Shown: positions 4,974 through 30,388 of the stretch, in pieces
How the letters are laid out: the number at the start of each line of letters is the position of its first letter
Position numbering within the stretch: the stretch's first letter is position 1
Assembly (NCBI GenBank): GCA_024280375.1
Contig: JAJRQF010000035.1
Location: 1-64,000, forward strand
Direction: 5' to 3'
Length of the DNA: 64,000 nucleotides
From: Alphaproteobacteria bacterium
Lineage (GTDB): Bacteria > Pseudomonadota > Alphaproteobacteria > Rhizobiales > Rhizobiaceae
Program-made: the position numbers and the translations under genes
Notes under the pieces: model-generated
Told to the model about the DNA's origin: nothing
The model's input: the letters and a program-made list of their open reading frames with translations, nothing else
Database searches by the model: none

Positions 4974-5125
4974 GGTGCCGGTCCGTTATTTTGATCAGAT
5001 AAATTTCAGGAAATCGCGGTGTTCCTAACCCATCGGTAGCAAGGCGGCAAGTTTTATCCCTCCAGGTTTTATCCCCCGGACAGCCCCCATTGACCCATTG
5101 GCGATGAGCCCCTACATTCTTAGCC

Positions 5126-5180
5126 TGTGGTGATTTGGCCGGTCGGCTTGCAGCCACGTTAAAGAAGTCGCTAAAAGGGC
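5126..5180 (+). promoter_or_regulatory. SAM-II riboswitch
   Basis: The stretch contains the conserved SAM-II core: GGTGATTTGG, a short helix, CTTGCAGCCACGTTAAA, then AAGTCGCTAAAA. These blocks form the two-stem pseudoknot that binds S-adenosylmethionine. It lies about 60 bases before metA on the same strand, the classical position in alphaproteobacteria. High SAM should lower metA expression. Confidence 0.92.
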
Positions 5181-5194
5181 CGTCTGAGATTTAG

Positions 5195-5223
5195 GCCGGT
5201 GGTGATTTCACGACCGGCTTTTT
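5195..5223 (+). terminator. Intrinsic terminator or attenuator in the metA leader
   Basis: GCCGGT (5195-5200) pairs with ACCGGC (5213-5218), with an inner GTG/CAC extension around ATTT, followed by five T (5219-5223). It sits between the riboswitch and the metA ATG at 5243. It could therefore act as the transcriptional output of the SAM-II element. Confidence 0.75.
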
Positions 5224-5242
5224 GTTTGAGAGAATTAAGTTA

Positions 5243-6160
5243 ATGCCGATAAAAATACCCAACAAACTGCCAGCCCGCCAAACCCTGGAGCATGAGGGCG
5301 TAAAGGTGATGTCGGAGCGAGAGGCAATCCGCCAGGACATCAGGCCACTGCAGGTTGGTTTGTTAAATCTTATGCCGGATAAAATTCGCACAGAAACCCA
5401 GATTGCCCGGCTTGTCGGCGCGTCTCCATTGCAGGTGGAATTGACGCTGGTGCGGATTGGCGAACATAAATCGAAGAACACATCGCATGAGCATTTGATC
5501 GATTTTTATCACACCTGGGAAGATATAGCAGACCGAAAGTTTGATGGCTTCATCATTACCGGCGCGCCAATTGAGCTGTTGCCATTTGAGGAAGTGACCT
5601 ATTGGGCCAAGTTGCAGAAAATTTTGGACTGGACCGAAACCAATGTTCATTCGAGCTTTAATATCTGCTGGGGTGCGATGGCGGCCATTTACCATTTTCA
5701 TGGGGTGCCGAAATATGATCTGGAAGAAAAGGCCTTTGGGGTTTTTCGCCATCAAAACAACAATCCAACATCTCCGTATTTAAGTGGCTTTTCCGACGAT
5801 TTTTCAATTCCTGTTTCCCGCTGGACCGAGGTTCGCAATGGTGACATAAACAAGCATTCGGAGTTGCAAATATTAATGGATAGCGGTGAAACCGGGCCCT
5901 GTCTCATCCATGAAAATACCGGTAATCGGCTGTATATTTTCAATCATATTGAATATGATTCAGGTTCCCTTGCTGATGAATTTTTTCGCGATCAAAATGC
6001 AGGCAAAGAAATCGCCGTGCCGGTGGATTATTTTCCCAATGACGACCCGGCAGAACCACCGCAAAATCGCTGGCGCTCGCACGCGCATTTGTTATTTGGC
6101 AACTGGATCAATACAATTTACCAAACCACGCCGTTTGATATGGACAAGATTGGAAATTGA
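5243..6160 (+). CDS. metA: Homoserine O-acyltransferase, probably acetyltransferase
   Basis: MetA activates homoserine for methionine synthesis. The 305-residue protein shows the start [28 protein letters not shown], the nucleophile region [10 protein letters not shown] and the catalytic His/Glu region [10 protein letters not shown]. In the acyl-CoA pocket the sequence reads [12 protein letters not shown]. Glu occupies the position where the E. coli succinyltransferase has Gly, which in this family indicates acetyl-CoA use. The ATG at 5243 is preferred over an in-frame TTG at 5222 that lies inside the terminator tail. The gene is controlled by the SAM-II leader. Residue-based specificity is an inference. 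Confidence 0.93.
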
Positions 6161-6165
6161 CATTT

Positions 6166-6180
6166 TAGCTAAATTAGCTA
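6166..6180 (+). promoter_or_regulatory. Palindromic operator upstream of the phd-doc pair
   Basis: TAGCTAA-A-TTAGCTA is a perfect 15-base palindrome, followed by direct repeats TAGCTATTTTGG and TAGTTATTTTGG at 6175-6203. Phd/YefM antitoxins repress their own operon by binding such palindromes, and this one lies 33 bases before the antitoxin ATG. The function is inferred from position and symmetry. Confidence 0.6.
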
Positions 6181-6213
6181 TTTTGGCTTTAATAGTTATT
6201 TTGGAGCGCCATT

Positions 6214-6444
6214 ATGAAAACCTTCAATGCAACACAGGCGAAAAATCAATTCGGCCAACTGCTTGATGATGCTCAGGCGGAGCCCGTCATCATTCAAAAG
6301 AACGGTCGCGATGTGGCTGTTCTGGTTTCAATGTCAGAGTTTCAATCCAAGATGCAAAATAATTCTTCGGACAACTTGATTCAGAAATACCTTGAAGAGA
6401 GCATGACCCGCTATGATGATCTCTATACTGAACTAGCCAAATAG
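6214..6444 (+). CDS. phd: Phd/YefM-family antitoxin
   Basis: The 76-residue protein begins MKTFNATQAKNQFGQLLDDA, the typical Phd/YefM DNA-binding fold, continues PVIIQKNGRDVAVLVSMSEF, and ends in a polar tail that would wrap the toxin. It should neutralise the Doc toxin encoded 15 bases downstream and repress the operon through the palindrome just upstream. A GGAG at 6203-6206 supports the start. The pair lies between metA and a VWA gene. Confidence 0.9.
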   Translation: MKTFNATQAKNQFGQLLDDAQAEPVIIQKNGRDVAVLVSMSEFQSKMQNNSSDNLIQKYLEESMTRYDDLYTELAK

Positions 6445-6459
6445 TGAAAGAGACGCATC

Positions 6460-6846
6460 TTGGATACTCGTTATCTATCATTGGAAAACTTGGTTAGTAT
6501 TCATAAGCAGCAAATCGATAAATACGGTGGCATGCCCGGCATCCGGGATGCTGGCTTGATCGAAGCAGCGCTTCTGCGTCCGCAAACAGGCTATTATCAT
6601 GATATTCTTGAAGAGGCGGCAGCACTTTGGGAAAGTCTAACCATGAATCATGGCTTTGTGGATGGCAATAAACGCATTGGATTTGCAGCAGCCTATATTT
6701 TCCTTCGTTTAAATGGTTATTGGCTGACTGCCAGTTCCAGCGAAGCCACTAAATTTATTTTGAACTCATTGCAAAACGGTTCCTTCACCAAGGACAATCT
6801 GGATAAATGGCTGCGCGTTAATGTAATTGAAAAACGGATTGATTGA
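6460..6846 (+). CDS. doc: Doc-type Fic-domain toxin
   Basis: The 128-residue protein carries the Doc/Fic core HGFVDGNKRIGFAAAY near residues 66-81, matching HxFxDGNKR, and the N-terminal GGMPGIRDAGLIEAALLRPQ typical of the Doc group. Doc kinases inactivate elongation factor Tu by phosphorylation; here this rests on family membership. Translation appears to start at TTG (6460), since no earlier in-frame ATG exists. The stop TGA at 6844-6846 shares one base with the next ATG (TGATG), so toxin translation is coupled to the VWA gene, which is unusual. Confidence 0.9.
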   Translation: MDTRYLSLENLVSIHKQQIDKYGGMPGIRDAGLIEAALLRPQTGYYHDILEEAAALWESLTMNHGFVDGNKRIGFAAAYIFLRLNGYWLTASSSEATKFILNSLQNGSFTKDNLDKWLRVNVIEKRID

Positions 6847-8030
6847 TGTTCACACAGCTATTTTACGGCCTGAAAGACGCAAAAATTCCCGTATCTCTGC
6901 GAGAATATTTAACCTTGCTTGAGGCAATGGAAAAGCAGTTGGTGATGTATGATGTGGAGGGCTTTTACTATCTTGCCCGTACCTCACTGATAAAAGACGA
7001 GCGCAATCTCGACCGTTTTGATCAGGTGTTTTCTACTGTGTTCAAAGGGCTTGAAAGTCTTGCCGATGGCGACAACCCGGAAGCACAGGAACTACCTGAG
7101 GAATGGCTGCGCCGTATGGCTGAAAAACACTTGAGTGCAGAAGAAAAAGCAGAGATTGAAGCGGCTGGCGGCTTTGAAAAACTGATGGAAACCTTAAAAA
7201 AGCGCCTTGAAGAACAGGAAAAGCGTCATCAGGGTGGCAATAAATGGATAGGCACTGCTGGCACCTCGCCATTTGGCGCCTATGGCTATAATCCCGAAGG
7301 CATTCGCATTGGCCAAAAGGAATCACGTCACCGCCGGGCAGTGAAGGTATGGGACAAACGTGCCTTCAAAAACCTCGATGACACTATAGAATTGGGCACG
7401 CGCAATATTAAAGTTGCGCTCAAGCGCCTGCGCCGATGGGCGCGCGAAGGGGCCGATGACGAATTTGATTTAAACGGCACCATTCGGGCAACCGCCGAAA
7501 ATGGCTATCTTGATGTTAAAACCCGCCCCGAACGGCGCAATGCGGTCAAATTGCTGCTGTTTCTCGATGTCGGCGGTTCAATGGATGGCTATATCCGCGT
7601 GGTAGAAGAATTGTTTTCCGCGGCACGGGCCGAGTTTAAACATATGGAATATTTCTATTTCCATAACTGCCTTTATGAGGGCGTGTGGAAAGACAATCAT
7701 CGTCGCTATGGCGCGCAAACGCCCACAATGGATGTGCTGCATAAATTCGGGCCGGATTATAAGGTAATCTTTGTTGGTGATGCGGCGATGTCTCCCTACG
7801 AAATTGCCCATCCGGGCGGTGCTGTCGAGCATTGGAACAAGGAGGCAGGTGATGTGTGGTTGCGCCGGGTGCTGGATCAATGGCCCAACACCGTTTGGCT
7901 AAACCCTGTACCACGTAAGGCTTGGGACTATACCCATTCAACCGACATGATACGTCAGATATTTTCAGACCGCATGTACCCGCTCAACCTTGCCGGTATT
8001 GATGAAGCGATGAAGGAGCTTGGTCGATGA
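6846..8030 (+). CDS. VWA (CoxE-like) domain protein
   Basis: The roughly 394-residue cytoplasmic protein has a VWA/CoxE-like C-terminal half with the metal-site motif FLDVGGSMDGYI near residue 240 (a DxGGS variant of MIDAS) and VIFVGDAAMSPYEI. The N-terminal half is helical and charged, including a KKRLEEQEKRHQGG stretch. This matches the COG3825 group, whose members usually partner a MoxR-type AAA ATPase; no such ATPase is adjacent here. It is coupled to doc (TGATG) upstream and overlaps the hydrolase gene by ATGA downstream. The exact role is unknown. Confidence 0.85.
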   Translation: MFTQLFYGLKDAKIPVSLREYLTLLEAMEKQLVMYDVEGFYYLARTSLIKDERNLDRFDQVFSTVFKGLESLADGDNPEAQELPEEWLRRMAEKHLSAEEKAEIEAAGGFEKLMETLKKRLEEQEKRHQGGNKWIGTAGTSPFGAYGYNPEGIRIGQKESRHRRAVKVWDKRAFKNLDDTIELGTRNIKVALKRLRRWAREGADDEFDLNGTIRATAENGYLDVKTRPERRNAVKLLLFLDVGGSMDGYIRVVEELFSAARAEFKHMEYFYFHNCLYEGVWKDNHRRYGAQTPTMDVLHKFGPDYKVIFVGDAAMSPYEIAHPGGAVEHWNKEAGDVWLRRVLDQWPNTVWLNPVPRKAWDYTHSTDMIRQIFSDRMYPLNLAGIDEAMKELGR

Positions 8031-8911
8031 GAGCTGTTCACTGGTTGATATACTCTCTGGCGCTAATGGTCGGTAGCAATGCATTTGCCGAACCGCTGCA
8101 ATTGCCACCCTTTAAGGACAAGCTGTTTCAATATCCGGGCATATTAGAGACCGGCTTTAAGGGTGATTTTGTTAAGGTAAAGTATGACAAGTTTATCGAT
8201 ATTCACAAGCGCGATGTCATTCTTGAGCGCGAGGTGAAACGCAAATATGTATCGGAAAAACCGCGCTGGTCTAAAAATGCCATGCGACTGAAAGTTGATA
8301 ATTATCTGATGAAATATTTTGCCGTCGGTAATATCAAAAAACCAGCCAAATTCATTGTGGTCTATGTGCACGGTTCTGGTGGCAGCCGGTTTCAGGGGGT
8401 TAATAACTGGACATTTGGTGGCAATTTTAACCGAATTCAAAACCTGGCAATCCGCAATGGCGGTCTTTATTTATCGCCCGATTTTTCTGACTATGGCAAT
8501 AAGGGCACCAACCAGATCAAGCAGATGATCCTGCGCCATGCGCGAACGTCTCCCGGTGCGCCAGTGTTCGTTGCCTGCGGTTCAAAGGGTGGCTTTATCT
8601 GCTGGCGCCTAACCCGCGACCGCGAGATTTTATCTAAAATGGGGGGCATGCTTTTATTCGGTTCCACCTGGGATGATGATTTTTACAAGTCAGCTGCAAT
8701 CAAACGCCGCTTACCAATTTATTTTGGTCACGGCACATGGGATACAGTTTTACCCTGGGAAAAACAGTTTGCATTTTTCAAACGGATAAAGAAAACGGTC
8801 TCCAATTATCCGACAAAATTTTCACTTTTTGACACAGGCACCCACGGCACCCCCATTCGCATGACCGATTGGCGACTAATCCTCAACTGGATGTTTAAGC
8901 TGCGGGGGTAA
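8027..8911 (+). CDS. Secreted alpha/beta-hydrolase-fold protein
   Basis: The 294-residue protein has a signal peptide (RAVHWLIYSLALMVGSNAFA) and an alpha/beta hydrolase core. The oxyanion region is VYVHGSGGSR, the nucleophile elbow is CGSKGGF, a candidate acid is in GHGTWDTVLPW, and a candidate His is in DTGTHGTPIR. The substrate is unknown; ester or lipid hydrolysis in the periplasm is plausible. It overlaps the VWA gene by four bases, so the two are probably translated together. It ends convergently with polA. Confidence 0.75.
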   Translation: MRAVHWLIYSLALMVGSNAFAEPLQLPPFKDKLFQYPGILETGFKGDFVKVKYDKFIDIHKRDVILEREVKRKYVSEKPRWSKNAMRLKVDNYLMKYFAVGNIKKPAKFIVVYVHGSGGSRFQGVNNWTFGGNFNRIQNLAIRNGGLYLSPDFSDYGNKGTNQIKQMILRHARTSPGAPVFVACGSKGGFICWRLTRDREILSKMGGMLLFGSTWDDDFYKSAAIKRRLPIYFGHGTWDTVLPWEKQFAFFKRIKKTVSNYPTKFSLFDTGTHGTPIRMTDWRLILNWMFKLRG

Positions 8912-8969
8912 TATTTTACCTGTGGCCAATTATTATCAATGCTGCTGTGATGGCGAGCGAATAGCAAGC

Positions 8970-9014
8970 CGCCGTTTATACGGCGCGCCTCGCAGGCCCA
9001 ATGCCACGCATTGG
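8970..9014. terminator. Paired hairpins between convergent genes
   Basis: Two perfect stem-loops lie between the hydrolase gene and polA: CGCCGT-TTAT-ACGGCG (8970-8985) and CCAATGC-CAC-GCATTGG (8998-9014). Neither has a U-run. Their position suggests transcription ends here in both directions. Confidence 0.4.
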
Positions 9015-9030
9015 ATCAGCCGTGAGAGTG

Positions 9031-11970
9031 TCAATGTGCCTCATCCCAATTGTCAGCCGCACGCGCATCAACAACCAATGGCACATTGAGCGAAAGTGCC
9101 GGCATCGGTGCATTGACCATGATTTTTTTGACCACCGAAATTGTTTGATCAATCTCGTCTTCGGGCAGTTCGAATATCAACTCATCATGCACCTGCAGCA
9201 ACATGCGAGCGGACAAATTAGCATTACTAAGTGCCGCATCCATTTTGATCATAGCGCGGCGGATAATATCAGCCGCAGAGCCTTGAATGGGCGCATTAAT
9301 CGCCGCACGTTCGTTAAATGCGCGGTGCTGCGGATTTTTTGAATTGATCTCCGGGTAGTGCGCCCGGCGGCCAAATATGGTTTCCACATAGCCTTTGTCG
9401 CGACAATAGGCCTTGGTATCCTCCATATAATCCTTGATGCCGGGAAACCGCTCGAAATACATTTTGATATAGTCGGATGCTTCACCGCGTGAAATGCCCA
9501 ACTGGGCCGCAAGACCGAAGGCGGAAATTCCGTAAATTATGCCAAAATTGATCGCCTTGGCCTGACGGCGCACCATTGGGTCCATACCTTCAACTGGTGT
9601 GTCGAACATTTCACTTGCCGTCATCGCATGAATATCGACCCCATCAGCAAAAGCCTGTTTTAACTGGCCAATATCAGCCACATGGGCAAGCACCCGCAAT
9701 TCGATCTGGCTGTAATCGGCAGATAAGAGCTTGTTGCCTTGTTCGGCCACAAAGGCAGTACGGATTTTGCGGCCTGCCTCACTGCGGATCGGGATATTCT
9801 GCAAATTTGGATCGGAAGAAGAAAGCCTGCCGGTCGATGTGGAGGCCATCGCGTAGGATGTATGCACCCGTTTGGTCGTCGGGTTAATGAACTCAGGCAG
9901 CGCGTCCGTATAGGTGGATTTCAGCTTGGTCAATTGCCGCCATTCTACGATTCTATTTGGCAGGTCGTGGCCCTCGGCCGCCAGGCTTTCCAGCACGCCA
10001 ACAGCAGTGGAATATTGTCCGGATTTGGTTTTCTTACCGCCCGGCAGACCGAGCTTATCAAACAATATTTCGCCAAGTTGTTTGGGTGATCCGATATTAA
10101 ACCGCACGCCTGCATTCTCATAAATTTCAGCCTCAAGCCGGGCCGCACCTTGGCCCAATTCGCCGGAAAGGCGGGAGAGAATTTGCCTGTCCACGACAAT
10201 TCCGCGGGCTTCCATTTTGCAAATTACGTCGACCAAGGGCCGCTCCAACCGCTCATAAATGGTCGTCATGCCTTCCGCTACCAGCCGTGGCTTTAATATC
10301 TGCCACAGCCGTAAGGTGACATCGGCATCTTCGGCCGCATAGGCGGTTGCCACATCCAGCTCGACCATATCGAAGGTGATTTTGGATTTTCCAGAACCGG
10401 TAATATCCTTGTAATGAATGGTCTCATGGCCAAGCCAGGTACGGCAAAGCTCGTCCATATTATGGCGCCTGCGCCCCGCGTCGAGCACATAAGAAAGCAG
10501 CATTGTATCGTCGAAAGGAGCGATTTTGATTCCGCGTCTTGATAGTAGCAACCAGTCATATTTCATGTTCTGGGCAATTTTCAAAACGGATGGATTTTCC
10601 AACATTGGCTTTAGTCTGGCCAATGCCTCATTTTCAGAAATTTGATCTTCAACAAACCCACCACCCAAAAGGTCTCCCTGACCTGATTTATGCGCCACAG
10701 GAATATAGCAAGCCTGAATTTTGCCATCCTCACCCTCAACGGCAAGCGACAGACCAACCAGTTCAGCCTGCATCGCGTCCAATGATGTGGTTTCCGTATC
10801 TACAGCAACTGTGCCTGCACTAATCGCCATTTCGATCCAGCGATCTAACGCCTCTAGAGTGCGAACGCATTCATAGCTATCGGTTTTTATCTCGGCAGAT
10901 ATTCCGGCTTTTTGCCGGGCCGCTGCAAGTTCTTCGGGGGAGAAATGCGCATCCCCCGGCTGTTGTTCCTGCGGCGCTGGGCGGCCAATCGTGCTGCCAG
11001 TGCCCGCATCAAGGTCCGGCCCGCGCTGGGCATCATACCCATCAACCTCAATCGTTACCGGCTCAATCTGCTCGGCGTCCGTATCAGTTTCTGCTGCCAC
11101 CCGTCGGGTCAGCGAATTAAGCTCCATCGCCTTTAGATAGGAAATCAGTTTTGGGCCATTGGGCTCGTGCAAAGAAAGCGCATCAAGCCCAACATCCAGA
11201 GGTACATGCTGATCTAACTCCACCAGTCTTTTGGAAATTCTAGCCTGATCGGCAAATTCGATCAGGTTTTCGCGGCGCTTGTTTTGTTTTATTTCACCGG
11301 CGCGGGAAAGCAGGGTTTCGAGATCACCAAATTCGTTCAACAACAGCGCGGCGGTTTTTGGTCCAATACCCGGAATACCTGGAACATTATCAGTTGAATC
11401 TCCGGCCAAAGCTTGAAGATCAATCATCTTTTCCGGCCCGACACCAAATTTTTCAACCACCTCATCGGGGCCAACCCGGCGATCTTTCATCGTGTCATAC
11501 ATGATGACCTGTGGCCCAACCAATTGCATCAAATCCTTGTCAGATGAAACAATGGTGCAATCAGCGCCAACCGCTGCGGCTTCCCTTGCATAAGTGGCGA
11601 TAATGTCATCGGCCTCAAATCCGGCCTTTTCGATGGAAGGCACATTAAAAGCCTCGGTTGCCTGACGGATCAGTCCGAATTGGGGGCGCAGATCTTCCGG
11701 TGGCGCATCACGATTGGCCTTGTATTCTGGATATATTTCGTTTCGAAAGGTTTTTGAAGAATGATCAAAAATCACTGCAAAATGAGTTGGTACAACGCCG
11801 ACATTAGTATCGCGCGCCTCTTGCAACAATTTCCAAAGCATATTGCAATACCCGGATACGGCCCCCATTGGCAGCCCGTCAGATTTGCGCGTTAGCGGTG
11901 GCAAAGCATGATAGGCTCGAAAAATATATGCTGAACCGTCAACCAGAAACAGATGATCACCTTTTTTCAT
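9031..11970 (-). CDS. polA: DNA polymerase I
   Basis: The 979-residue enzyme fills gaps and removes primers during replication and repair. The N-terminal 5'-3' nuclease domain spans about residues 1-290 (LFLVDGSAYIFRAYHALPPL, GFEADDIIATYA, GDSTDNVPGIPGIGPKTA). The 3'-5' proofreading domain is intact (VAVDTETTSLDAMQ near residue 391). The polymerase domain follows (LSADYSQIELRVLAHV, RRQAKAINFGIIYGISAFG, LLQVHDELIFE). The ATG at 11970 is the only sensible start. It is a stand-alone gene in this window. Confidence 0.97.
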   Translation of the reverse strand: MKKGDHLFLVDGSAYIFRAYHALPPLTRKSDGLPMGAVSGYCNMLWKLLQEARDTNVGVVPTHFAVIFDHSSKTFRNEIYPEYKANRDAPPEDLRPQFGLIRQATEAFNVPSIEKAGFEADDIIATYAREAAAVGADCTIVSSDKDLMQLVGPQVIMYDTMKDRRVGPDEVVEKFGVGPEKMIDLQALAGDSTDNVPGIPGIGPKTAALLLNEFGDLETLLSRAGEIKQNKRRENLIEFADQARISKRLVELDQHVPLDVGLDALSLHEPNGPKLISYLKAMELNSLTRRVAAETDTDAEQIEPVTIEVDGYDAQRGPDLDAGTGSTIGRPAPQEQQPGDAHFSPEELAAARQKAGISAEIKTDSYECVRTLEALDRWIEMAISAGTVAVDTETTSLDAMQAELVGLSLAVEGEDGKIQACYIPVAHKSGQGDLLGGGFVEDQISENEALARLKPMLENPSVLKIAQNMKYDWLLLSRRGIKIAPFDDTMLLSYVLDAGRRRHNMDELCRTWLGHETIHYKDITGSGKSKITFDMVELDVATAYAAEDADVTLRLWQILKPRLVAEGMTTIYERLERPLVDVICKMEARGIVVDRQILSRLSGELGQGAARLEAEIYENAGVRFNIGSPKQLGEILFDKLGLPGGKKTKSGQYSTAVGVLESLAAEGHDLPNRIVEWRQLTKLKSTYTDALPEFINPTTKRVHTSYAMASTSTGRLSSSDPNLQNIPIRSEAGRKIRTAFVAEQGNKLLSADYSQIELRVLAHVADIGQLKQAFADGVDIHAMTASEMFDTPVEGMDPMVRRQAKAINFGIIYGISAFGLAAQLGISRGEASDYIKMYFERFPGIKDYMEDTKAYCRDKGYVETIFGRRAHYPEINSKNPQHRAFNERAAINAPIQGSAADIIRRAMIKMDAALSNANLSARMLLQVHDELIFELPEDEIDQTISVVKKIMVNAPMPALSLNVPLVVDARAADNWDEAH

Positions 11971-21113: not shown

Positions 21114-23375
21114 TTATTTGGACGTGGCAGTATAGATCCCAGTCCAGTTTTGACCAGGAGGATTGGCACGAAATTCTGAGATTCGAGATTCGTATAGAAA
21201 CAGATATTCTTCCAAATCGAATTTCATACGCTCCGCCAGTTTGGCGCACAACTCTACAGCCTCATATGCTGATGCCCAATCTTGAGTTCGATAGGAAGCC
21301 AGCATACTACGATTAAGCGCTTTTAAAGCAATAAAATCTTTGTCCATTGCAAGATCTTTGCCGCCCATTAACGCGAAAATTCGTTCTGGTTCCTTCTTTC
21401 CCTTTACTCGAATTAAATCGACTTCCAATGTAGCAACCATCTCTCCCGTATTTGTGGCTGTTACCTCACCAATTATTGTTGGAATACCGTAAGTTTTACT
21501 TTGTCCTTCAAGGCGTGATGCAAGGTTGACCGTATCGCCAAGCGCCGTATAGTCAAACCGCATATCTGTGCCCATATTTCCGACCACACTGGTTCCTGTA
21601 TTAATTCCAATACCGATAGAAAGTTCAATTTGTTCAGTTCCGGTTATTCTGGCGGCCTCTTGTAATTCCTCATTTAATAGCGCCACTTCCTCTATCATCG
21701 CAATTGCAGCCATACAGGCATTTTCCGCATGTTGCTCATCATCCAGCGGTGCATTCCAAAATGCCATAATCGCGTCGCCCATATATTTGTCTATGGTGCC
21801 TTTCCGACCAACAATGGCATTGGAAAGTGGGGTTAAAAGCTTATTGATCAACCGGGTTAATCCCTGCGGGTCATCTTTCATCGATTCTGATATTGCAGTG
21901 AAGCCTCGAACGTCAGTAAAGAGAACAGAGATTGTTCGTGTCTGGCCTCCCAATATCAACTGGCTTGGGTCATGCGCAAGTTGTTCTACCAGTGCTGGGG
22001 CAATGTACTGGCCAAAAGCATTGCGAATAAACCGACCTTCATTTTCGGTAAGAAACAAACGGGCAGCAGAAGCACCCCCAAACACCAGAAAAGAAACGCT
22101 TGCGGGCAGTAACGGACTTAACAACAAACGATATTCACGAAAGGCCATCCAGCAAAACACAAATATTGACATTATAACCAACAGCGAGAGCAATCCGGCA
22201 GACAACGGTCTGAACCATGGAAGTCCGGCTAATATTATCAACGGGAGTATAATCGCTGCAGATAACTCGAGACCGAAGGACCAGTCAGGTCTGCTTAAAT
22301 ACGTACCCGACATAATTTGATCGGTAAGTTCTGCATGTACAACTACTCCAGGCATCACCGCTTGCATTGGCGTTGCAACAATATCGCGTAGACCAATCGC
22401 AGAAGTTCCCACAAATACAATGTGGCCGGCTATTTTTTCAGCTAATCGCTGGTCGGGATTTTCATAGGTAAGTCGGTGAGCAGCAATCGTGGTGAAATTG
22501 CTATTTTTCGTATAGTAGACTCTGGTAAATCCATCCGGTTCTACCGGGATTTTAAAACTACCAACCTTGATAGCCACCATGGCCGGATTGCCGGTATCAA
22601 GTTCACCGCTTGCCCCCGTACTTTTGATCGAGATACTGGGTACACCCTGCGCCACCCGTAAAGCCTCGATTGACAGGGTTGGCAACAATATCTTTCCTGA
22701 ACGGGAGAATAACGGTATTCGTCGTACAAGTCCGTCTGACGCCGGATTGAAGCTGAATACGCCGATCCCTTTTGCTCCTGAATCAAGCATTGGGATATTC
22801 GATATACTACCGGAGTATTGCGGCAGATAAGACACATCAGCTGGCCCGATGAAGTTGAAACTGGACTTTGCATTAGGCGGTATGTTTTTGTTGAAAGGCG
22901 TCATTGCCAAGCCTGTTATTACAGGATGTCGCGCGATGGTTTCGGAAAAAAGTTTGTCAGTATTAAATACTTTGCTTTCGTCCAGTATTTTCAGATCTAC
23001 ACCTTTGCGTAGCAACTGTGGAATTATCCTGTGCGGCGATGTTCGATCGGGTTCGGAAAATACGATATCAAATACAATCGCTGCTGCTCCGAGCTGGCCA
23101 AGATTATCAACGATTTTTGCGATGATTGTTCGCGGCCAAGGCCATTGACCCAAACGTGCCAGCGAGCCTTCGTCAATATCAACAATAGCAATCGGGTTGT
23201 CTGTTGCCGCACGCGGTAATATCCGCTGATAGCTGTCAAATACAAGGTCATTGAAACGATCAATTTGGCTAACGGGCGAAATTGCATAAACAATACACCC
23301 CGCAAGCACGATCAATCCGGATGCCCAAATTGATAAATATTTATGATTGTTGGCGAGCGTAATCAGGCGTTCCAT
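21114..23375 (-). CDS. CHASE2-domain adenylate cyclase
   Basis: The 753-residue inner-membrane protein has an N-terminal membrane helix (about 14-35), a periplasmic CHASE2 sensor (about 38-370, with IVDIDEGSLARLGQWPWPR), three more helices (about 378-450) and a class III cyclase domain (about 480-690). The catalytic set is complete: the metal Asp residues in VLFTDVRGFTAISE and DKYMGDAIMAF, the Lys in TIDKYMGD, the Asp in YTALGDTVN, and the Arg in NLASRLEG, which fits adenylate cyclase. It is the last gene of the operon with the FecR-domain and Slam-like genes, 86 bases after the former. Confidence 0.92.
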   Translation of the reverse strand: MERLITLANNHKYLSIWASGLIVLAGCIVYAISPVSQIDRFNDLVFDSYQRILPRAATDNPIAIVDIDEGSLARLGQWPWPRTIIAKIVDNLGQLGAAAIVFDIVFSEPDRTSPHRIIPQLLRKGVDLKILDESKVFNTDKLFSETIARHPVITGLAMTPFNKNIPPNAKSSFNFIGPADVSYLPQYSGSISNIPMLDSGAKGIGVFSFNPASDGLVRRIPLFSRSGKILLPTLSIEALRVAQGVPSISIKSTGASGELDTGNPAMVAIKVGSFKIPVEPDGFTRVYYTKNSNFTTIAAHRLTYENPDQRLAEKIAGHIVFVGTSAIGLRDIVATPMQAVMPGVVVHAELTDQIMSGTYLSRPDWSFGLELSAAIILPLIILAGLPWFRPLSAGLLSLLVIMSIFVFCWMAFREYRLLLSPLLPASVSFLVFGGASAARLFLTENEGRFIRNAFGQYIAPALVEQLAHDPSQLILGGQTRTISVLFTDVRGFTAISESMKDDPQGLTRLINKLLTPLSNAIVGRKGTIDKYMGDAIMAFWNAPLDDEQHAENACMAAIAMIEEVALLNEELQEAARITGTEQIELSIGIGINTGTSVVGNMGTDMRFDYTALGDTVNLASRLEGQSKTYGIPTIIGEVTATNTGEMVATLEVDLIRVKGKKEPERIFALMGGKDLAMDKDFIALKALNRSMLASYRTQDWASAYEAVELCAKLAERMKFDLEEYLFLYESRISEFRANPPGQNWTGIYTATSK

Positions 23376-23461
23376 AATCCGGATACACTACCCCTCATTG
23401 TCGCAATGAGACAATTTATAATTCCGGATACAAATAAAAATCGTAATAAACCAGAGGTGCA

Positions 23462-26293
23462 CTATTTTTTACCCACAAATGTACCTGCTGCCTTGATTGC
23501 GGTGCCATTTGAAAATTCAAATTGTCCGATGACCCCTTTTGCCTTGACGGAACCATTGTTAACAAATGCACCTGCAGCGGAACCTGTAAGACCTGTACCG
23601 GTTAGTGTGCCATCAAATAGAGATTGGGTGAGTGAACTAGTATCAGTGACAGCGCCGGCAACACTCATGCCGTCAAAATTTGAAATGTTTAAATTACCGG
23701 TGCGGGAACTAAAATTCCAGTTTAGTGCCATGTCGCCCTTGGCAAGATATTGCTGAATATTATTCGTACCGAGATTGCGAGCTACTGTTCCCAATGCGGT
23801 ACCATTATATATTGCAGAGCCGGTCAATGGCATGTCAACCGGACTGGTTATATCGCCGGCTACCCAAGTGCCCAGGTGGACATGTTCGCTTCGATTTCCA
23901 TATGTAGTTGCAGTTGTTCCAGGATCATCAACCCGTACTCTAGTACCCCACCAACCCCAATCAGCAAATGTGCAAGAAGTGCAATGTTGGTATCCCGCGA
24001 TTGGAGCTGCTCTGCCAGAGACTATATATGAACCGGCACTGGTTCCATTAATTTGATTTGCGGTGGTGCCGGTGGCGTAGTTAATTTGCGTATTTGACTT
24101 TGCTCTATTATGAACCCCGCCAAAAGTATTATTATCTACAAATGTATTGCCGCCGCCCACCCCGTTCCATGCACCGAAAGTCAACAGCATACTGACAACA
24201 TCCGGCTCAACATTGGCAACATCGGTAACCAGCCCCTGTGCACCAAAACTATTATTGGTTGCGTTTGTGAACATGATAAAATTGGGAGCACCCAAAACAC
24301 CGCCAACAACAAATGGATTTTTTGCTCGGGGAGTGCCGCCAGTGGGAGCATATGCTTGCTCATTTATACCAACCAAAAAGCCGCTGGCCTGGCGGCTGGC
24401 GCGTGTAAAAGTCGATTGCGGCGTTTCAGCAACCAGCGAAGCCACATGCAGTGTTCCGGAATATCCATCATCTGTAAATCCAGTGAAATTACCGGTATAA
24501 TTGAACAATCCAGGTCCGGCTGCGCCATCAAAATAGGTATCATTTTCAATCAACACCTGCCCAATAACGAAATGTTCTGCATTAGCACCAAATAAATGGG
24601 TACCACCTGCTCCAGGGGTCGTACCTAATCCACCGCGTAAAGCAATCGACGGCGCATTGGCATTAACGCGATAACTTCCTCTTCTTGAAGCCCAAATACG
24701 CTCCGCACCGGAACTATCAGTATAAAATGCATCGGCCAGAACATGAACCGCGCTTTTTTGACTTGCGCCACTGCCATTAATATCGATCCAGGTTGAAAAC
24801 ACTTCGACCTCACCTGAACTCGACTGATTGGGCTCAACCACAAAAAGATTAGTGGAATTAAAGTTGCTTACTGGGCCGTATAGATCGGTAACAAAATAAG
24901 GAACTGGCTGGTTTTGAATTGGATCACGGGTTAATTCATATTGTCGAATATCGGTACCTGTGTCGAAATCAATCAGTTGAGGAACATTGGTCTCAGTACC
25001 ATAAAATACATAAAACGGGTCTGTCGCAACGCCGTTGGTACCCAGCATGTAGGCGACGAAATCATCTCGCCCTGCATAGGCTATACCGGTAAGATTACCC
25101 ACTGGTGACGTGCCATCAGTCACATTAAATGCTGATGTTGTTGTATCGCCGGCGGTTCCGGTAAAATCGGGAAGGTTGATCTCTCCGGCATTTGTTGTTC
25201 CGATTAATCGCCCGTTGACTGACGTGAATCTAATAATGCGGTTTGTTTCCGGTGTTCCCCCCACTAGGCTGCGTGGACCATTATTATTTAGCTGATCGCC
25301 ATTAAAAGAGTGGGTGAACAGAAACGGGTTCATTACGACCCGTGTCAACAGACCAGTTGGAGTAAGGGGAGTCTGAATGACCGTAGCCGGAGTTTCAGTA
25401 GTTGAACTCTCTTCTACCACATCTACCACAATTTCCTGGGTCGCTACTTTAATACCAGCCAAGTCTTCTTCAGCTGTTTCGATAGAGGTCGACAAAATTG
25501 TTGAAGGTCGGGGGGAGGGAGTGGTAACAGAATCAGGCGCGCCTGAATTTACGTCTACCACTTCGCTGTTGCTTACCACGCCGTTTGTTGGTTTAATTTT
25601 TGCACCGCCAGAGGTGCCTCTTCTACCGGCAAGCGCGGATTGAAAAACCCCTGAATCGCCAAGCGTGCGGCGACGAACTTTGGCAACTCCATTAGAGCCA
25701 TTGATATCCATTGTATAACCGGCCCGGTAAATTCTTGCCTTACCACCGTTATTGCCTTCATAATTGACCTCTGTACCAAAAATCATGGAAAACAGCGTTT
25801 TACCGCCATTGCCATTTACCAGTCCGTCAACCATTCCGCCGCGAATTCCGATAGTTCCTGTGGGTGTGTGGATTGTAGCACCACCCTTTGTACGACTGGC
25901 GCGCCCACCAACAAACCGAAAGGCTCCCTTGGTGACTGTTGCCACCAATTTCGCCGTACCGGAATTTGGGTCATAAACAAACTCATCAATAACCAATATG
26001 CTATTGGGGCCTACTGTAAATGTAGTCCCGTCAGCCAACAATACCTGTACCAACCCGGACCCTTTGGTCTCAATCCGTTCGTTAAAAACCAGATTGCTGC
26101 CAAGGGACAATATTCGAGGGGCTTTTCCAGGTGCAGTGCCCTTTGCATCCTGATTAACCGCCGCTGTTACACCGATCCTTGCAGCGGCCAATTCACCCAT
26201 ATTGAATGATAAAGCTAAAATTGCCGTAGCCAATGTTGTAAACAAAGCGGTAGATCTATTTAAGAACGTATATTTGAAATCGCTTCCGGTCAT
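23462..26293 (-). CDS. Exported FecR-domain protein with TbpB-like C-terminal barrel
   Basis: The roughly 943-residue protein begins at ATG 26293, giving a signal peptide that ends near SFNMGELAAA. A longer frame to 26434 overlaps the upstream gene and adds no signal. A FecR-like domain occupies about residues 60-170 (LLADGTTFTVGPNSILVIDE, IHTPTGTIGIRGG). A long repetitive Gly/Asn/Thr-rich middle follows. The last 140 residues read like a TbpB-type lipoprotein barrel: GDMALNWNFSSRTGNL, GSAAGAFVNNGSVKAKGVIG, ending AAGTFVGKK. It starts four bases after the Slam-like gene, so it may be that protein's export cargo. Barrel and cargo assignments are inference. Confidence 0.8.
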   Translation of the reverse strand: MTGSDFKYTFLNRSTALFTTLATAILALSFNMGELAAARIGVTAAVNQDAKGTAPGKAPRILSLGSNLVFNERIETKGSGLVQVLLADGTTFTVGPNSILVIDEFVYDPNSGTAKLVATVTKGAFRFVGGRASRTKGGATIHTPTGTIGIRGGMVDGLVNGNGGKTLFSMIFGTEVNYEGNNGGKARIYRAGYTMDINGSNGVAKVRRRTLGDSGVFQSALAGRRGTSGGAKIKPTNGVVSNSEVVDVNSGAPDSVTTPSPRPSTILSTSIETAEEDLAGIKVATQEIVVDVVEESSTTETPATVIQTPLTPTGLLTRVVMNPFLFTHSFNGDQLNNNGPRSLVGGTPETNRIIRFTSVNGRLIGTTNAGEINLPDFTGTAGDTTTSAFNVTDGTSPVGNLTGIAYAGRDDFVAYMLGTNGVATDPFYVFYGTETNVPQLIDFDTGTDIRQYELTRDPIQNQPVPYFVTDLYGPVSNFNSTNLFVVEPNQSSSGEVEVFSTWIDINGSGASQKSAVHVLADAFYTDSSGAERIWASRRGSYRVNANAPSIALRGGLGTTPGAGGTHLFGANAEHFVIGQVLIENDTYFDGAAGPGLFNYTGNFTGFTDDGYSGTLHVASLVAETPQSTFTRASRQASGFLVGINEQAYAPTGGTPRAKNPFVVGGVLGAPNFIMFTNATNNSFGAQGLVTDVANVEPDVVSMLLTFGAWNGVGGGNTFVDNNTFGGVHNRAKSNTQINYATGTTANQINGTSAGSYIVSGRAAPIAGYQHCTSCTFADWGWWGTRVRVDDPGTTATTYGNRSEHVHLGTWVAGDITSPVDMPLTGSAIYNGTALGTVARNLGTNNIQQYLAKGDMALNWNFSSRTGNLNISNFDGMSVAGAVTDTSSLTQSLFDGTLTGTGLTGSAAGAFVNNGSVKAKGVIGQFEFSNGTAIKAAGTFVGKK

Positions 26294-26297
26294 AGTT

Positions 26298-27686
26298 TTA
26301 CCAATTTTTTGAGATGCTGAAAGATGCTGTGAAATTATTGTGCTCGCGAATATCGTAGTTGGAATTAACCATTCTGTATTCAGTGTCCAACAATGCGGCC
26401 CATCCTTCCTTGATTGGAATTGTAAGTCCTGCACTTACATAGGCCTCACGATCGCGCTGCTTTCGAGCAGCATTGATTGTAACATCAGGGTTGTCATAGT
26501 TGCGAATAGCGCCGCCGATAGATAGCCTACCTATCCAGTCCGGTTGATCCTCACCCAACGGCGATTGAAATGAAAAACCAGGCCCAACATTAAACGTAAC
26601 CTCAGTGTAACTCAGATGTCCTGCATCCGCCCATGTACGCTGCACCTGACCAGTAGCTTGAACTGTCAGTTTTGGGCTGATTATATGGCGATAAAAAGCC
26701 TGAGCCCGTGCCTCATGACCATCTCGATTGGTCGCATTCGGTGCGCTTGTGCTGTTATAATACAACCGCCTGCGATATTCGGTTTTAAATGAAAACAGAT
26801 CGGCGGCATTGGGTCGAATGACCAGTCTTTTACCAATTCCAAATCCAGAGGAATAATAAGCATCACCAAGAAAAACGCCCGAAACAATACCGTAGACTCC
26901 AAGAGCAGCATTATCAATTTCAAAGCGACCAAGATCAAAAGATGGTCCAATGGTCAGTTCAGCTTGCAACAGGTCAATTTCGTTTCGCTTAAACTGTTTT
27001 GAACCATATACCAATAAATCTGCTTCAATAGCATCTCCCTGCGATTCAAGGTCATAACGCCAATGGAATATTCCCGCCGCGTAGGCGTTGAAGTCTGCTT
27101 CGCCGGTCGAACCCGGATTGAGAGTAAACACATTGCCGTTGAGAGTAATATTTGAGTTTGTGGTGACGCGATTGGCATTGGTTTGATAACGCAATCCGGC
27201 GCGAATTTGACCACTGAAAGTACTTGGTGTATCTGCTGAAGCGATGCCGGCTAAATATTGTTCGACCTTTTTGCGTACTTCTTCCGGCACATCGGGAGAA
27301 GAGATGGCAGCCTCAAAATAACTGCGAGCTGTCTGAAATGCTGAAACCCGGTAGTATAAGAGCCCAAGCTCCAATTGCAGGCGAGGCAATCCTGGAGCAA
27401 AAATCAACATTCTTTCAAGTGTCGATATGGCCGCTTCCACGTCGCCAACCTGAATTGACAAAGCTGCATATTTAAACGCCACATCCAGGTCGGAAGGACT
27501 TGAAAACATTATTTCAAACAACGCTTTACGTCGCGCTTCGATCGCATCAAGGCTTTGAGTGCCGATATTGGGTGATATGATTTGTTTCGGCGGAACCTTT
27601 GTCGCTGCAAAGCTCGTAGAAAAGAATACAGTTATACTCAAAAACAAACTGAACACCGACAAGACAAATTTTGTATATGTCTTCAT
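26298..27686 (-). CDS. TPR plus outer-membrane beta-barrel protein, Slam (type XI secretion)-like
   Basis: The 462-residue protein has a signal peptide (about 1-28). Tetratricopeptide repeats span about 60-150 (FKYAALSIQVGDVEAAISTL, LELGLLYYRVSAFQTARSYF). The C-terminal 290 residues are rich in alternating aromatic strands and start GLRYQTNANRV. The protein ends SFSISKNW with an aromatic terminal residue, as in outer-membrane barrels. TPR followed by a DUF560-type barrel is the architecture of Slam proteins, which move TbpB-like cargo across the outer membrane. It is first in an operon with the FecR/TbpB-like protein and the CHASE2 cyclase. Confidence 0.75.
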   Translation of the reverse strand: MKTYTKFVLSVFSLFLSITVFFSTSFAATKVPPKQIISPNIGTQSLDAIEARRKALFEIMFSSPSDLDVAFKYAALSIQVGDVEAAISTLERMLIFAPGLPRLQLELGLLYYRVSAFQTARSYFEAAISSPDVPEEVRKKVEQYLAGIASADTPSTFSGQIRAGLRYQTNANRVTTNSNITLNGNVFTLNPGSTGEADFNAYAAGIFHWRYDLESQGDAIEADLLVYGSKQFKRNEIDLLQAELTIGPSFDLGRFEIDNAALGVYGIVSGVFLGDAYYSSGFGIGKRLVIRPNAADLFSFKTEYRRRLYYNSTSAPNATNRDGHEARAQAFYRHIISPKLTVQATGQVQRTWADAGHLSYTEVTFNVGPGFSFQSPLGEDQPDWIGRLSIGGAIRNYDNPDVTINAARKQRDREAYVSAGLTIPIKEGWAALLDTEYRMVNSNYDIREHNNFTASFSISKNW

Positions 27687-27970: not shown

Positions 27971-28793
27971 TTAGAATGGCTTGCCCCGTCCGAAGTAGAC
28001 GTCTGCAGGCGTTAGATTTTTCAAGCTCTCGTGATATCTGCTGTGATTGTAATGTTCGATGAAGTCTTCAATTTGCTGAGATAAATCGCCTAGCAGAAAG
28101 TAATTCTCCAGCAGGATGCGGTTTTTCAGGGTTTGATGCCAGCGTTCAATCTTGCCTTGAGTTTGCGGATGATATGGAGCGCCGCGAACATGGCTCATAC
28201 CTTTCCAATCTAGCCACTCGGCCAAGTCACTGGATATATAACAAGGGCCATTATCTGACAACAATCGAGGTTTGTGTGCAACTTTGATTTTATCACAACC
28301 AGAAGCCTGAAGCGCCATTTCCAATGTATCGGTCACATCTCAAGTTTTCCGGCGACGTACTCATGGTAGTGCACAGTTTCCACGAGATAGTGTAGCGCGA
28401 ATAACCATCCAGAATTGTTGATAGATAAAACCAGCCCCAGCCGATGACCTTCAGATAAGTGAAGTCTGTTTGCCATAGCTGATTGATGACGGTTATTTTA
28501 TCTCTGAACTTACTGGAGGCCTTCATGGCAATGAACGCTGGGCTGATGATCAGATCAAGGGCCAAATCAATAATCTGAGCACGCACTTCATTCGGCACAC
28601 GGTTCCAGGCCCTGTTGGCGCCGGAACGTATATCTTCCAATCCTTGTTCCCCAAACCGCTGATACAAAAATCATATCAGCGACAAAAAGGTCGGTCGTGA
28701 GACACCCAGCTTTTCAAGCGTCACCTTTGTTGGCAGGTGCGATCGCTCAACAATACGGATGATTTCTAACTTCTCTGGTGCTGGGTACCTCAT
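27971..28793 (-). pseudogene. IS3-family transposase OrfB, broken
   Basis: The frame starts at ATG 28793, overlapping the OrfA stop (ATGA), and reads MRYPAPEKLEIIRIVERSHL. It then meets an in-frame TGA near 28675, where relatives continue into YQRFGEQGLEDI. A frameshift near 28337 separates YTISWKLCTTM from DTLEMALQASGCDKI. All three catalytic residues survive in the pieces (WQTDFTYLK, LLSDNGPCY, GKIERWHQT). The gene should give no full transposase. Confidence 0.85.
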
Positions 28794-29164
28794 TCTTCGT
28801 CGACCCCATCCTCGATCATGCTTTTTTTGAGCAGACGGTTTTCCAAGGTGAGATCAGCCACACATTCTTTCAGATCACGTGCTTCGCGGCGCAGGCCTTT
28901 AACCTCGTCAGTGGACGCCTCACGCACTATATCAACAGACAGACGCTTTTTACCCGCCTCCAGAAACTCTTTCGACCATTTGTAATACATGCTTTTGGAA
29001 AGGCCCTCACGGCGGCAGAGCTCAGCATTGCTGTCTTCGCCGCGCAGACCATCAAGCACAATGCGTATCTTTTCCTCAGCTGAATATTGGCGTCGGGTCT
29101 TCCGTTTGATTGTCCAGATCAATTTCTCTGAGCCGGATCCACGGGTTCCTGATTTATGTCTCAT
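28790..29164 (-). CDS. IS3-family transposase OrfA (helix-turn-helix)
   Basis: The 124-residue protein contains the OrfA helix-turn-helix SNAELCRREGLSKSMYYKWS, followed by a leucine-zipper-like EARDLKECVADLTLENRLLK. It would bind the IS ends together with OrfB, but its OrfB is inactivated. Its stop overlaps the OrfB start in an ATGA. Confidence 0.85.
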   Translation of the reverse strand: MRHKSGTRGSGSEKLIWTIKRKTRRQYSAEEKIRIVLDGLRGEDSNAELCRREGLSKSMYYKWSKEFLEAGKKRLSVDIVREASTDEVKGLRREARDLKECVADLTLENRLLKKSMIEDGVDEE

Positions 29165-29255
29165 CTTCGCTCCTTAGGAGCTTTGATGAACTAAAAATCA
29201 TCTCTTAGGTAAACTTACATGGACTTGCCTTGATAAAGTGGACAGCACCTATCTC

Positions 29256-30113
29256 TTAAGCAGCTAGTTTTTCATAGGCTGCCGGACTGATATTTCCAAG
29301 GGCAGAGTGTCTGCGCCTTGGGTTGTAGAAGTCATTTATGTATCCAAATATTTTCCTTTCTGCATCATTGCGTGTTTCAAATTTCATGCGCCAGATGAGT
29401 TCGGCCTTGATGGTTTTGAAGAATGATTCAACTGGAGCATTATCATAACAATTTCCCTTGCCTGACATTGAAGCAACCATTCCATGACGTTTCAACAGCA
29501 TTTGATACTGTGTCGAACAGTATTGGCTGCCGCGATCTGAGTGGTGAATGAGCCCGGGTTCTGGTTGGCGCAATGTGATCGCCATTTGCAAAGCTCTCAG
29601 GGCCAGGTCTCGTTTCATCCTGTCACTGACCGCCCACCCGACAATACGTCTTGAATGAAGGTCCAGCACCACAGCCAGATAAAGCCAGCCCTGGCGAGTC
29701 TGGATATAGGATATATCGACAGACCATTTCTCATTGGGTTTTGATGCTACGAAGTTCTGTTCCAGAATGTTGGGTGCAAAGCCATAGGAGTGGTTTGAGT
29801 TGGTCGTGCGCTTGAACTTGCGGGTTCGTACAGCTTTGATGCCATTCTCGCGCATTAATTGCCCTATCCGCGTGTGCCCGACCTTGAAGCCAAGCTCACG
29901 CAGCTCTTCAACCATGCGTGGGCGACCGTAAGAACGATGGCTGGCTTCAAATTCTGTTTGGATATGATCGAGCAACACAATATCTTCACGGGCTCGTTTG
30001 CTGGCTGGACGTGACCGCCATGCATAAAACCCTGACCGGGAGATGCCAAACAACTTACACAGGCGAGCCGTATTGTTCCTGGCCCTCTCCGCATTGATGA
30101 ACTTGCACCTCAT
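29256..30113 (-). CDS. IS3-family transposase OrfB (DDE integrase)
   Basis: The 285-residue catalytic subunit has an HTH_21 region (HRSYGRPRMVEELRELGFKV) and a complete rve-type DDE core: Asp in KWSVDISYIQTRQGW, Asp in LIHHSDRGSQYCS, Glu in YDNAPVESFFKTIKAEL. It ends with the usual NPRRRHSALGNISPAAYE. The ATG at 30113 overlaps the OrfA stop, but the natural product is probably an OrfAB fusion made by -1 frameshifting. No disrupting mutation is seen. Confidence 0.92.
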   Translation of the reverse strand: MRCKFINAERARNNTARLCKLFGISRSGFYAWRSRPASKRAREDIVLLDHIQTEFEASHRSYGRPRMVEELRELGFKVGHTRIGQLMRENGIKAVRTRKFKRTTNSNHSYGFAPNILEQNFVASKPNEKWSVDISYIQTRQGWLYLAVVLDLHSRRIVGWAVSDRMKRDLALRALQMAITLRQPEPGLIHHSDRGSQYCSTQYQMLLKRHGMVASMSGKGNCYDNAPVESFFKTIKAELIWRMKFETRNDAERKIFGYINDFYNPRRRHSALGNISPAAYEKLAA

Positions 30114-30388
30114 CACTTTTGGCTCGCGAAGAAGGCTGTTGCTTTTTTTAGGATATCGCGTTCCTCACGCAATATCTTGTTCTCTTTGCGAAGGCGGGCC
30201 AATTCCTTTTGCAGGTCATCGTGTGGTCCGGCCATCAAATCATCATCGCGATAAGCTGATATCCACTTGCCCAGTGTTGAATGTCCAACCCCGAGGTCAT
30301 CGGCCACCTGATGGCGTGAAAGGTCACTGTTCAAAGCAAGCTGAACGGCCTCTTTGCGAAAGTCTTCTGTAAAATGTTTGCGTGTCAT
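30113..30388 (-). CDS. IS3-family transposase OrfA
   Basis: The protein reads TRKHFTEDFRKEAVQLALNS, then the helix-turn-helix SRHQVADDLGVGHSTLGKWI, and a coiled coil LQKELARLRKENKILREERD ending near the frameshift signal. The ATG at 30388 is preferred because GGAGG lies five bases upstream. Together with OrfB it forms the active transposase. Confidence 0.92.
   Translation of the reverse strand: MTRKHFTEDFRKEAVQLALNSDLSRHQVADDLGVGHSTLGKWISAYRDDDLMAGPHDDLQKELARLRKENKILREERDILKKATAFFASQK

Follow-up and report, generated by a model that had tools for sequence, protein, structure and literature searches.

A putative FecR-bearing cargo and a CHASE2 cyclase encoded with a divergent type 11 secretion-like protein: a candidate envelope-spanning cyclic AMP signalling unit in Alphaproteobacteria

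A stretch of 64,000 nucleotides from an alphaproteobacterium of the Rhizobiaceae (assembly GCA_024280375.1, contig JAJRQF010000035.1, positions 1 to 64,000; the window, meaning this whole stretch) carries three consecutive minus-strand genes. They encode an outer-membrane protein made of tetratricopeptide repeats (TPR) and a beta-barrel, an exported protein that joins a FecR domain to a TbpB-like C-terminal region (the tail), and a CHASE2 class III nucleotide cyclase. We estimate at roughly 55% the probability that they form an envelope-spanning cyclic AMP (cAMP) signalling unit with a divergent type 11 secretion system (T11SS; Slam/DUF560-like) pair as its base. The reading of the first two proteins as translocon and cargo is well supported by sequence comparison and predicted structure, and surface signalling is what we infer from it. 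The FecR/TPR/CHASE2-cyclase part has precedents in NsrA-CyaK of Sinorhizobium meliloti and in gene clusters of Campylobacterota; the new element is that such modules form part of a divergent type 11 secretion pair in which the cargo bears a FecR signalling domain. The three-gene set looks like a means of sensing an external cue and passing it on inside via cAMP.

A preliminary description of this DNA had placed the three genes in tight order on the minus strand, and their positions and lengths are confirmed. Four bases separate the stop codon of the barrel gene from the ATG of the FecR gene, 86 bases separate the stop of the latter from the cyclase gene, and neither gap contains a terminator-like site. 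The ATG start gives a FecR protein of 943 residues; the mechanical list of open reading frames uses an upstream GTG, which gives 990. The features, all on the minus strand, are as follows.

26298..27686, minus: outer-membrane protein, 462 residues, with export signal, TPR and predicted 14-stranded barrel (divergent DUF560/T11SS-like)
27234..27551, minus: helical TPR region, residues 46-151, expected to be periplasmic
26301..27224, minus: predicted 14-stranded beta-barrel, residues 155-462 (model with a mean predicted local distance difference test, pLDDT, of 90.9; CymA and OmpG at Z of about 20-22; hhalign)
23462..26293, minus: exported FecR-TbpB-like putative cargo, 943 residues, without lipobox
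25664..26179, minus: FecR domain, residues 39-210 (PF04773; 4m0n and 6ovk at Z 15-16)
25358..25603, minus: predicted disordered linker, about residues 231-312 (pLDDT mostly under 50)
23465..25351, minus: beta-rich TbpB-like region, residues 315-943, with the C-lobe clear from about 631 (model, fold comparison)
23468..23818, minus: predicted C-terminal eight-stranded barrel of T11SS-cargo type, residues 826-942 (slam_lipo/TbpB_B_D profiles, model, VIA)
21114..23375, minus: CHASE2 class III nucleotide cyclase, 753 residues (Pfam)
22263..23282, minus: CHASE2 sensor, residues 32-371 (Pfam)
21384..21941, minus: cyclase catalytic domain, residues 479-664 (Pfam, alignment)

The three proteins

The product of the first gene has the architecture that the preliminary description gave it, TPR followed by a barrel with an aromatic end: Pfam finds TPR_9 (7.7e-9) and nothing else above cut-off, the predicted structure consists of the helical TPR and 14 long strands, and the last residue is Trp. 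TPR and barrel in one exported chain, the barrel by prediction, is the layout of a T11SS outer-membrane protein, and the available part of PMC8406197 states 14 strands for the DUF560 family barrel. The proposed Slam/DUF560 identity stood at the level of the family and not for the single protein. The window barrel gives no match to PF04575 (SlipAM/DUF560) at E≤1, for which reason we call it a divergent relative instead of a PF04575 member; across its whole genome there are 0 matches to this profile. Because the direct Pfam match failed, the identity was settled through relatives and profile comparison. When the window protein is aligned with 45 relatives, 17 of the 46 barrel proteins match SlipAM at E≤0.1, with a best value of 1.7e-8 and the window protein not among them, and eight match the Slam TPR model. 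Ten barrels were scanned singly: six pass the SlipAM cut-off (L117, L119, L120, L123, L040 and L041; L, G and C numbers are our handles for loci, genomes and contigs), L036 and L050 fall under it, and L039 and L049 have no match at E≤0.1. FecR and/or CHASE2-cyclase genes adjoin all six that pass. The L120 barrel is followed by a same-family FecR-tail protein (L222), that of L117 by a FecR-tail protein and a cyclase (L245), and that of L123 sits between FecR and CHASE2 cyclase genes (L283).

Comparison of the barrel family with six true DUF560 proteins by hhalign gave a probability of 100 for the whole protein (E 4.9e-45) and of 99.8% for the barrel part alone (E 2.2e-29, 279 columns). The control Porin_2 reached 23.8%. 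BBP2_2 reached 93.5% (E 2.3e-7, 164 columns) and is not a clean control, true DUF560 proteins scoring likewise high against it (95.4%). A sequence search of the Protein Data Bank with the barrel protein returned TPR matches only, and the barrel model retrieved 14-stranded and other porins, FadL-type channels and TPR polysaccharide exporters, with no Slam entry among the matches listed by Foldseek and VIA, so that fold alone cannot separate a translocon from a porin. We regard as well supported the assignment of the window protein as a divergent DUF560/T11SS relative outside PF04575.

For the second protein a FecR-like N terminus and a TbpB-like C terminus had been suggested, and both are recovered. 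A signal peptide precedes the FecR domain, which begins at about residue 39 (about 39-210 in the model); Pfam places PF04773 at residues 73-173 (E 6.7e-8), and VIA aligns the domain with 4m0n at Z 16.2 (Z 15-16 for 4m0n and 6ovk). In the model (mean pLDDT 81.7) a low-confidence segment at 231-312 is followed by beta structure up to the C terminus, where residues 826-942 form the eight strands that had been anticipated. Measured between the same columns of 31 aligned rows, two of them tail-less, the linker is 47-84 residues long (median 62). The NCBIfam profile slam_lipo (NF041636) matches residues 808-943 (E 8.9e-5) under cut-off, at 28.8 of 80 bits. The TbpB_B_D (PF01298) relationship expected of the tail falls short in the window protein, at 17.2 bits for a cut-off of 26, and appears in the family, where 11 of 28 tails match at E≤0.1; slam_lipo is matched there by 16 and FHBP_C by 14. 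Since slam_lipo also misses, at E≤1, five other long FecR proteins that were scanned over their full length, we treat the tail signal as weak in single proteins and clear in profile and fold.

Searched against solved structures, the profile of the 28 tails finds NHBA/GNA2132 (9.9e-9), fHbp (2.8e-5) and TbpB (6.9e-4), and it also retrieves TbpB_B_D proteins that adjoin DUF560 genes. Foldseek with the 943-residue model lists TbpB first (3pqu, E 2e-8), followed by FecR-type anti-sigma domains, fHbp, NHBA, HphA and LbpB. The TbpB C-lobe is matched by VIA at Z of about 14 and a root mean square deviation (rmsd) of about 4 over 190-196 residues; the VIA matches cover chiefly residues 631-943 and the FecR domain, the N-lobe part being less supported. 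A C-terminal eight-stranded barrel of TbpB fold, here by prediction, and a gene next to that of a T11SS-type outer-membrane protein are marks of a T11SS cargo, and the 943-residue protein is, with good support from the model, a putative non-lipidated TbpB-fold cargo that carries a FecR domain. A lipoprotein was considered and rejected, a lipobox-like motif occurring in one of the 31 aligned rows (L085) and not in the window protein.

The third protein matches CHASE2 (3e-51) and Guanylate_cyc (4e-19) in Pfam. Residues D488, K530, D534, D614, N617 and R621 are identical in 41 of 41 rows of an alignment of the window protein with 40 relatives (BLAST hits over 300 bits); we take these positions to be the metal, base and transition-state residues, and the Lys-Asp pair presumably indicates ATP as substrate. 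As had been described, gene 3 encodes, judged by its sequence, a complete CHASE2 class III cyclase, and no catalytic residue is missing.

Conservation and co-occurrence

A scan of genome contigs for the barrel yielded 59 loci from other genomes; going by their record names, we take most of them to be Hyphomicrobiales and some to be Rhodobacterales. Of the 59, 58 pass the barrel profile, 57 have a FecR gene, which is not a chance association in a set collected by way of the barrel, and 42 have a cyclase within the fetched flank. The gene order proposed for the window recurs: the FecR gene is directly downstream of the barrel in 56 of the 57 FecR-bearing loci (56 of all 59), the cyclase standing in between in L110, and in 40 of the 42 loci with a cyclase this gene lies downstream in the same orientation (exceptions L054 and L110). 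FecR and tail form a single reading frame in 51 of the 59. Six loci end at a contig end (L056, L060, L067, L074, L095 and L103) and L111 is not a member; with these seven set aside, the cyclase rate is 42 of the 52 loci with room. Within the window's own family the barrel is matched in 22 of 151 genomes, nine of them (its own included) below 1e-89, and the unit is also carried by plasmids of Shinella and Paracoccus. Mesorhizobium sp. YM1C-6-2 is a further relative that possesses it.

Among 385 genomes of the class the tail occurs in 45, the barrel (E≤1e-3) in 104 and both in 43, with a Fisher p of 1e-25 from a test that treats genomes as independent, which they are not, and a tail profile that was built from barrel-found loci and favours tails of that kind. 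The 104 include partial matches; 88 remain at 1e-10 and 83 at 1e-20, and the outcome is unchanged. The tail genomes lacking a barrel are G184, which has a PF04575 gene, and G496. Of 53 loci found through the tail, 22 hold FecR, tail and barrel together, 13 the tail match only, and six a tail protein without FecR plus a strong DUF560-profile protein in the stretch; in the four of these six that were tested (L250, L252, L258 and L259) TbpB_B_D is over its cut-off. Forty loci taken from the best rows of a cyclase search have the FecR profile in 12 (this profile was built from the own family and may miss other FecR proteins), the barrel in 10 of these and the tail in three of those. By these counts the combination of barrel, FecR and cyclase recurs whether or not a tail is present, and the tail accompanies the barrel.

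The tail-less sets bear on a reading in which nothing is exported. The TPR-barrel protein would be a surface receptor resembling NsrA, the FecR protein a wholly periplasmic relay to CHASE2, and the tail a periplasmic binding or plug module. L088 fits this, keeping barrel, FecR and cyclase without a tail, as do the seven of 10 cyclase-first barrel and FecR loci that have no tail-profile match, and NsrA itself holds FecR, TPR and barrel in one chain, its barrel being taken from the legend available in PMC7529298. Against it, the tail has the fold and sequence family of T11SS cargo, the barrel belongs to the translocon family, and all 35 of the 35 genomes with the tail at E≤1e-10 have the barrel; we find this reading rather doubtful. 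What the tail-less loci do change is the translocon's description as dedicated, which was too narrow: L088, L091, L302 and L308 combine barrel and FecR but lack the tail. Tail export is thus not all that the barrel does, and we rejected it as the sole role. Some FecR-tail genes, moreover, lie away from any barrel. In G431, G310 and G509 they are apart from the barrel, which stands alone elsewhere in the genome. G431 has six tail matches on separate contigs, of which the five fetched (L230, L234, L235, L237 and L238) are FecR-tail proteins whose neighbours are unrelated; its only full barrel stands at another place (L312), and several cargoes may share this one pore. A conserved C-terminal tip common to tail-less FecR proteins was also sought and dropped, some of them ending in cysteine-rich motifs that are not general.

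Signalling model and precedents

In the signalling unit that we favour, the TPR-barrel protein would bring the TbpB-like C-terminal region to the outside of the cell, by way of the barrel or together with it, and the FecR domain would remain periplasmic, docked on the TPR and attached through the linker. Binding of a ligand to the surface region or to barrel loops would alter the FecR domain, which would control the CHASE2 sensor of the cyclase and with it cAMP; in tail-less relatives the barrel itself may be the receptor. We place FecR inside, touching TPR and CHASE2, and the tail outside because conservation is greatest in the parts that we expect to be periplasmic and because NsrA-CyaK offers a precedent. 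Mean identity is 57% for the TPR (pairwise, 46 members), 56% for the FecR core and 53% for CHASE2; elsewhere it is 32% for the barrel, 29% for the linker, 33 and 25% for the middle region, 43% for the end barrel and 64% for the cytoplasmic catalytic domain. A more specific version, which we put forward tentatively, has the T11SS cargo stalled in its own translocon as a receptor, with FecR on the inside, the ligand-binding TbpB-like lobes exposed outside and the linker threading the pore or running alongside it, and with export state or ligand occupancy read by CHASE2 and turned into cAMP. In that version the periplasmic relay would be the conserved part and the TbpB-like tip an exchangeable sensor head, which tail-less relatives lack and of which G431 has several copies.

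The FecR region also weakly matches the LapA retention module (L035 has the best match, 1.8e-4) and 5ix9, a domain for anchoring at the cell surface. This would suit a FecR domain that acts mainly as a retention plug of the kind known from LapA-type adhesins and fixes the tail in the pore, with signalling secondary or absent. Those matches span about 50-60 residues, the FecR matches are stronger (VIA Z 16) and the cyclase would be left unexplained, which makes a mere plug highly improbable.

Matches of the same region, under cut-off, to the profiles of the leptospiral surface proteins Lsa33 and LipL45 would agree with export of the whole FecR-TbpB-like protein as an adhesin or ligand-binding surface protein, the cyclase being co-transcribed and not reading it; so would the FecR-tail genes without a nearby cyclase and the barrels that stand alone. 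The cyclase rate given above speaks against this, as do the correlated distances of CHASE2 and barrel (0.97, which shared descent could explain), the clustering of FecR, TPR and CHASE2-cyclase genes in Campylobacterota according to the available part of PMC9239204, and the action of NsrA through CyaK according to that of PMC7529298. We judge an unrelated neighbour unlikely. Partial tree-distance correlations of 0.77 for CHASE2 and barrel and 0.40 for TPR and FecR are suggestive only.

Several observations weigh against the favoured unit. Known T11SS cargo is exported as an entire protein, and a FecR domain kept inside is our inference only. Besides the missing PF04575 match and the TbpB_B_D score under cut-off, the Foldseek match to TbpB covers 755 columns at an rmsd of 25 and template modelling scores of 0.15/0.25, which is no single rigid superposition. 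Ten of the 52 loci with room show no cyclase, and the tail is missing from the intact FecR genes of L088 (285 residues) and L091 (305 residues). FecR and tail occur without a barrel within the fetched stretch in 12 of the 53 tail-first loci (some loci without a barrel, or with the tail only, are cut by contig ends), nine barrels with the tail elsewhere or absent (L312-L320; one, in G307, in a genome without tail match) have neither FecR nor cyclase in the stretch, and FecR accompanies only the 12 of 40 cyclases mentioned. Tree-distance correlations are high among all parts (0.75-0.97), as shared descent alone would give.

With T11SS (Slam/HrpB, DUF560/SlipAM PF04575, TbpB_B_D cargo) the window set shares TPR plus a predicted 14-stranded barrel, a neighbouring cargo with a C-terminal eight-stranded barrel, and profile homology to true DUF560 proteins across the whole barrel; it differs in a barrel beneath Pfam detection, a cargo that opens with a FecR domain and linker, and a CHASE2 cyclase that follows. 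With FecR/PupR cell-surface signalling it shares the FecR-type periplasmic domain. FecR anti-sigma regulators have an anti-sigma domain and an inner-membrane helix ahead of the FecR domain, whereas that of the window has no anti-sigma part ahead, follows a signal peptide and has the cyclase as its likely output.

NsrA-CyaK resembles the window set in that FecR, TPR and an outer-membrane barrel immediately precede a CHASE2 class III cyclase, and differs in that NsrA is a single fused chain of 1219 residues where the window has two chains. Read from pSymB, an unannotated record, NsrA carries FecR (2.3e-15) and TPR in one chain and its gene overlaps a CHASE2 cyclase gene by one base; other records call this cyclase cyaK, and nsrA is reportedly directly upstream of cyaK. 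Pfam names no barrel in NsrA, and NsrA matches neither the tail profile nor, at 1e-3, the barrel profile. A figure legend in PMC7529298, available to us in part, places its barrel at residues 600-1200, and the same text describes NsrA and CyaK as both required to perceive a protein signal in one signalling route. A response to the protein signal uL2 characterises that system. The Campylobacterota clusters, which we liken by description, also contain a phosphodiesterase, and the available part of PMC9239204 mentions no secretion system or TbpB fold.

The preliminary description knew of no described circuit of T11SS, cargo and cyclase. This holds for a T11SS version in the openly licensed literature searched and fails for its other half, FecR, TPR and CHASE2-cyclase clusters and NsrA-CyaK being published. 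In that literature no paper came up for CHASE2 with DUF560 or for FecR domain, adenylate cyclase and tetratricopeptide together, FecR was not paired with DUF560, T11SS or SlipAM, and T11SS was not paired with adenylate cyclase or CHASE2 among the matches listed, which does not prove absence from print; the words FecR and cyclase are absent from the text of the two T11SS papers searched. The gene set links the T11SS and CHASE2-cyclase fields, not joined in the literature searched: a putative cargo of TbpB-type fold bears a FecR domain and is inherited with a cyclase, CHASE2 cyclases gain a concrete candidate set of outer-membrane partners with a testable order of parts, and a structural frame is offered for NsrA-CyaK.

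Related and neighbouring loci

The window genome holds a second, tail-less set (L311, contig C1 52000-68000) with a TPR protein of 429 residues (8447-9736), a FecR protein of 312 residues (7493-8431) and a CHASE2 cyclase (4723-6618), a 259-residue gene product being encoded between the last two. We claim no barrel for the 429-residue protein because only its TPR half matched the family. On contig C95 of the same genome a 345-residue protein (L042, 8269-9306) matches only the barrel half, and neither the FecR nor the cyclase profile finds a match within the 17 kb fetched. Outside the class, a stretch of about 8 kb in L323 (G724) carries two genes for the barrel and three for FecR, with no cyclase match. 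L106 (Paracoccus cavernae) has the whole set, its barrel, FecR and cyclase genes each broken into pieces. Directly upstream of the window set, at 27971-30116, lie transposase-like frames, short ones and one of 286 residues, which we take from the letters to be IS3-like. On plasmid p1 of Shinella sp. H4-D48 (L049) the set lies between a C39-peptidase/ABC gene pair and NHLP-type bacteriocin export genes.

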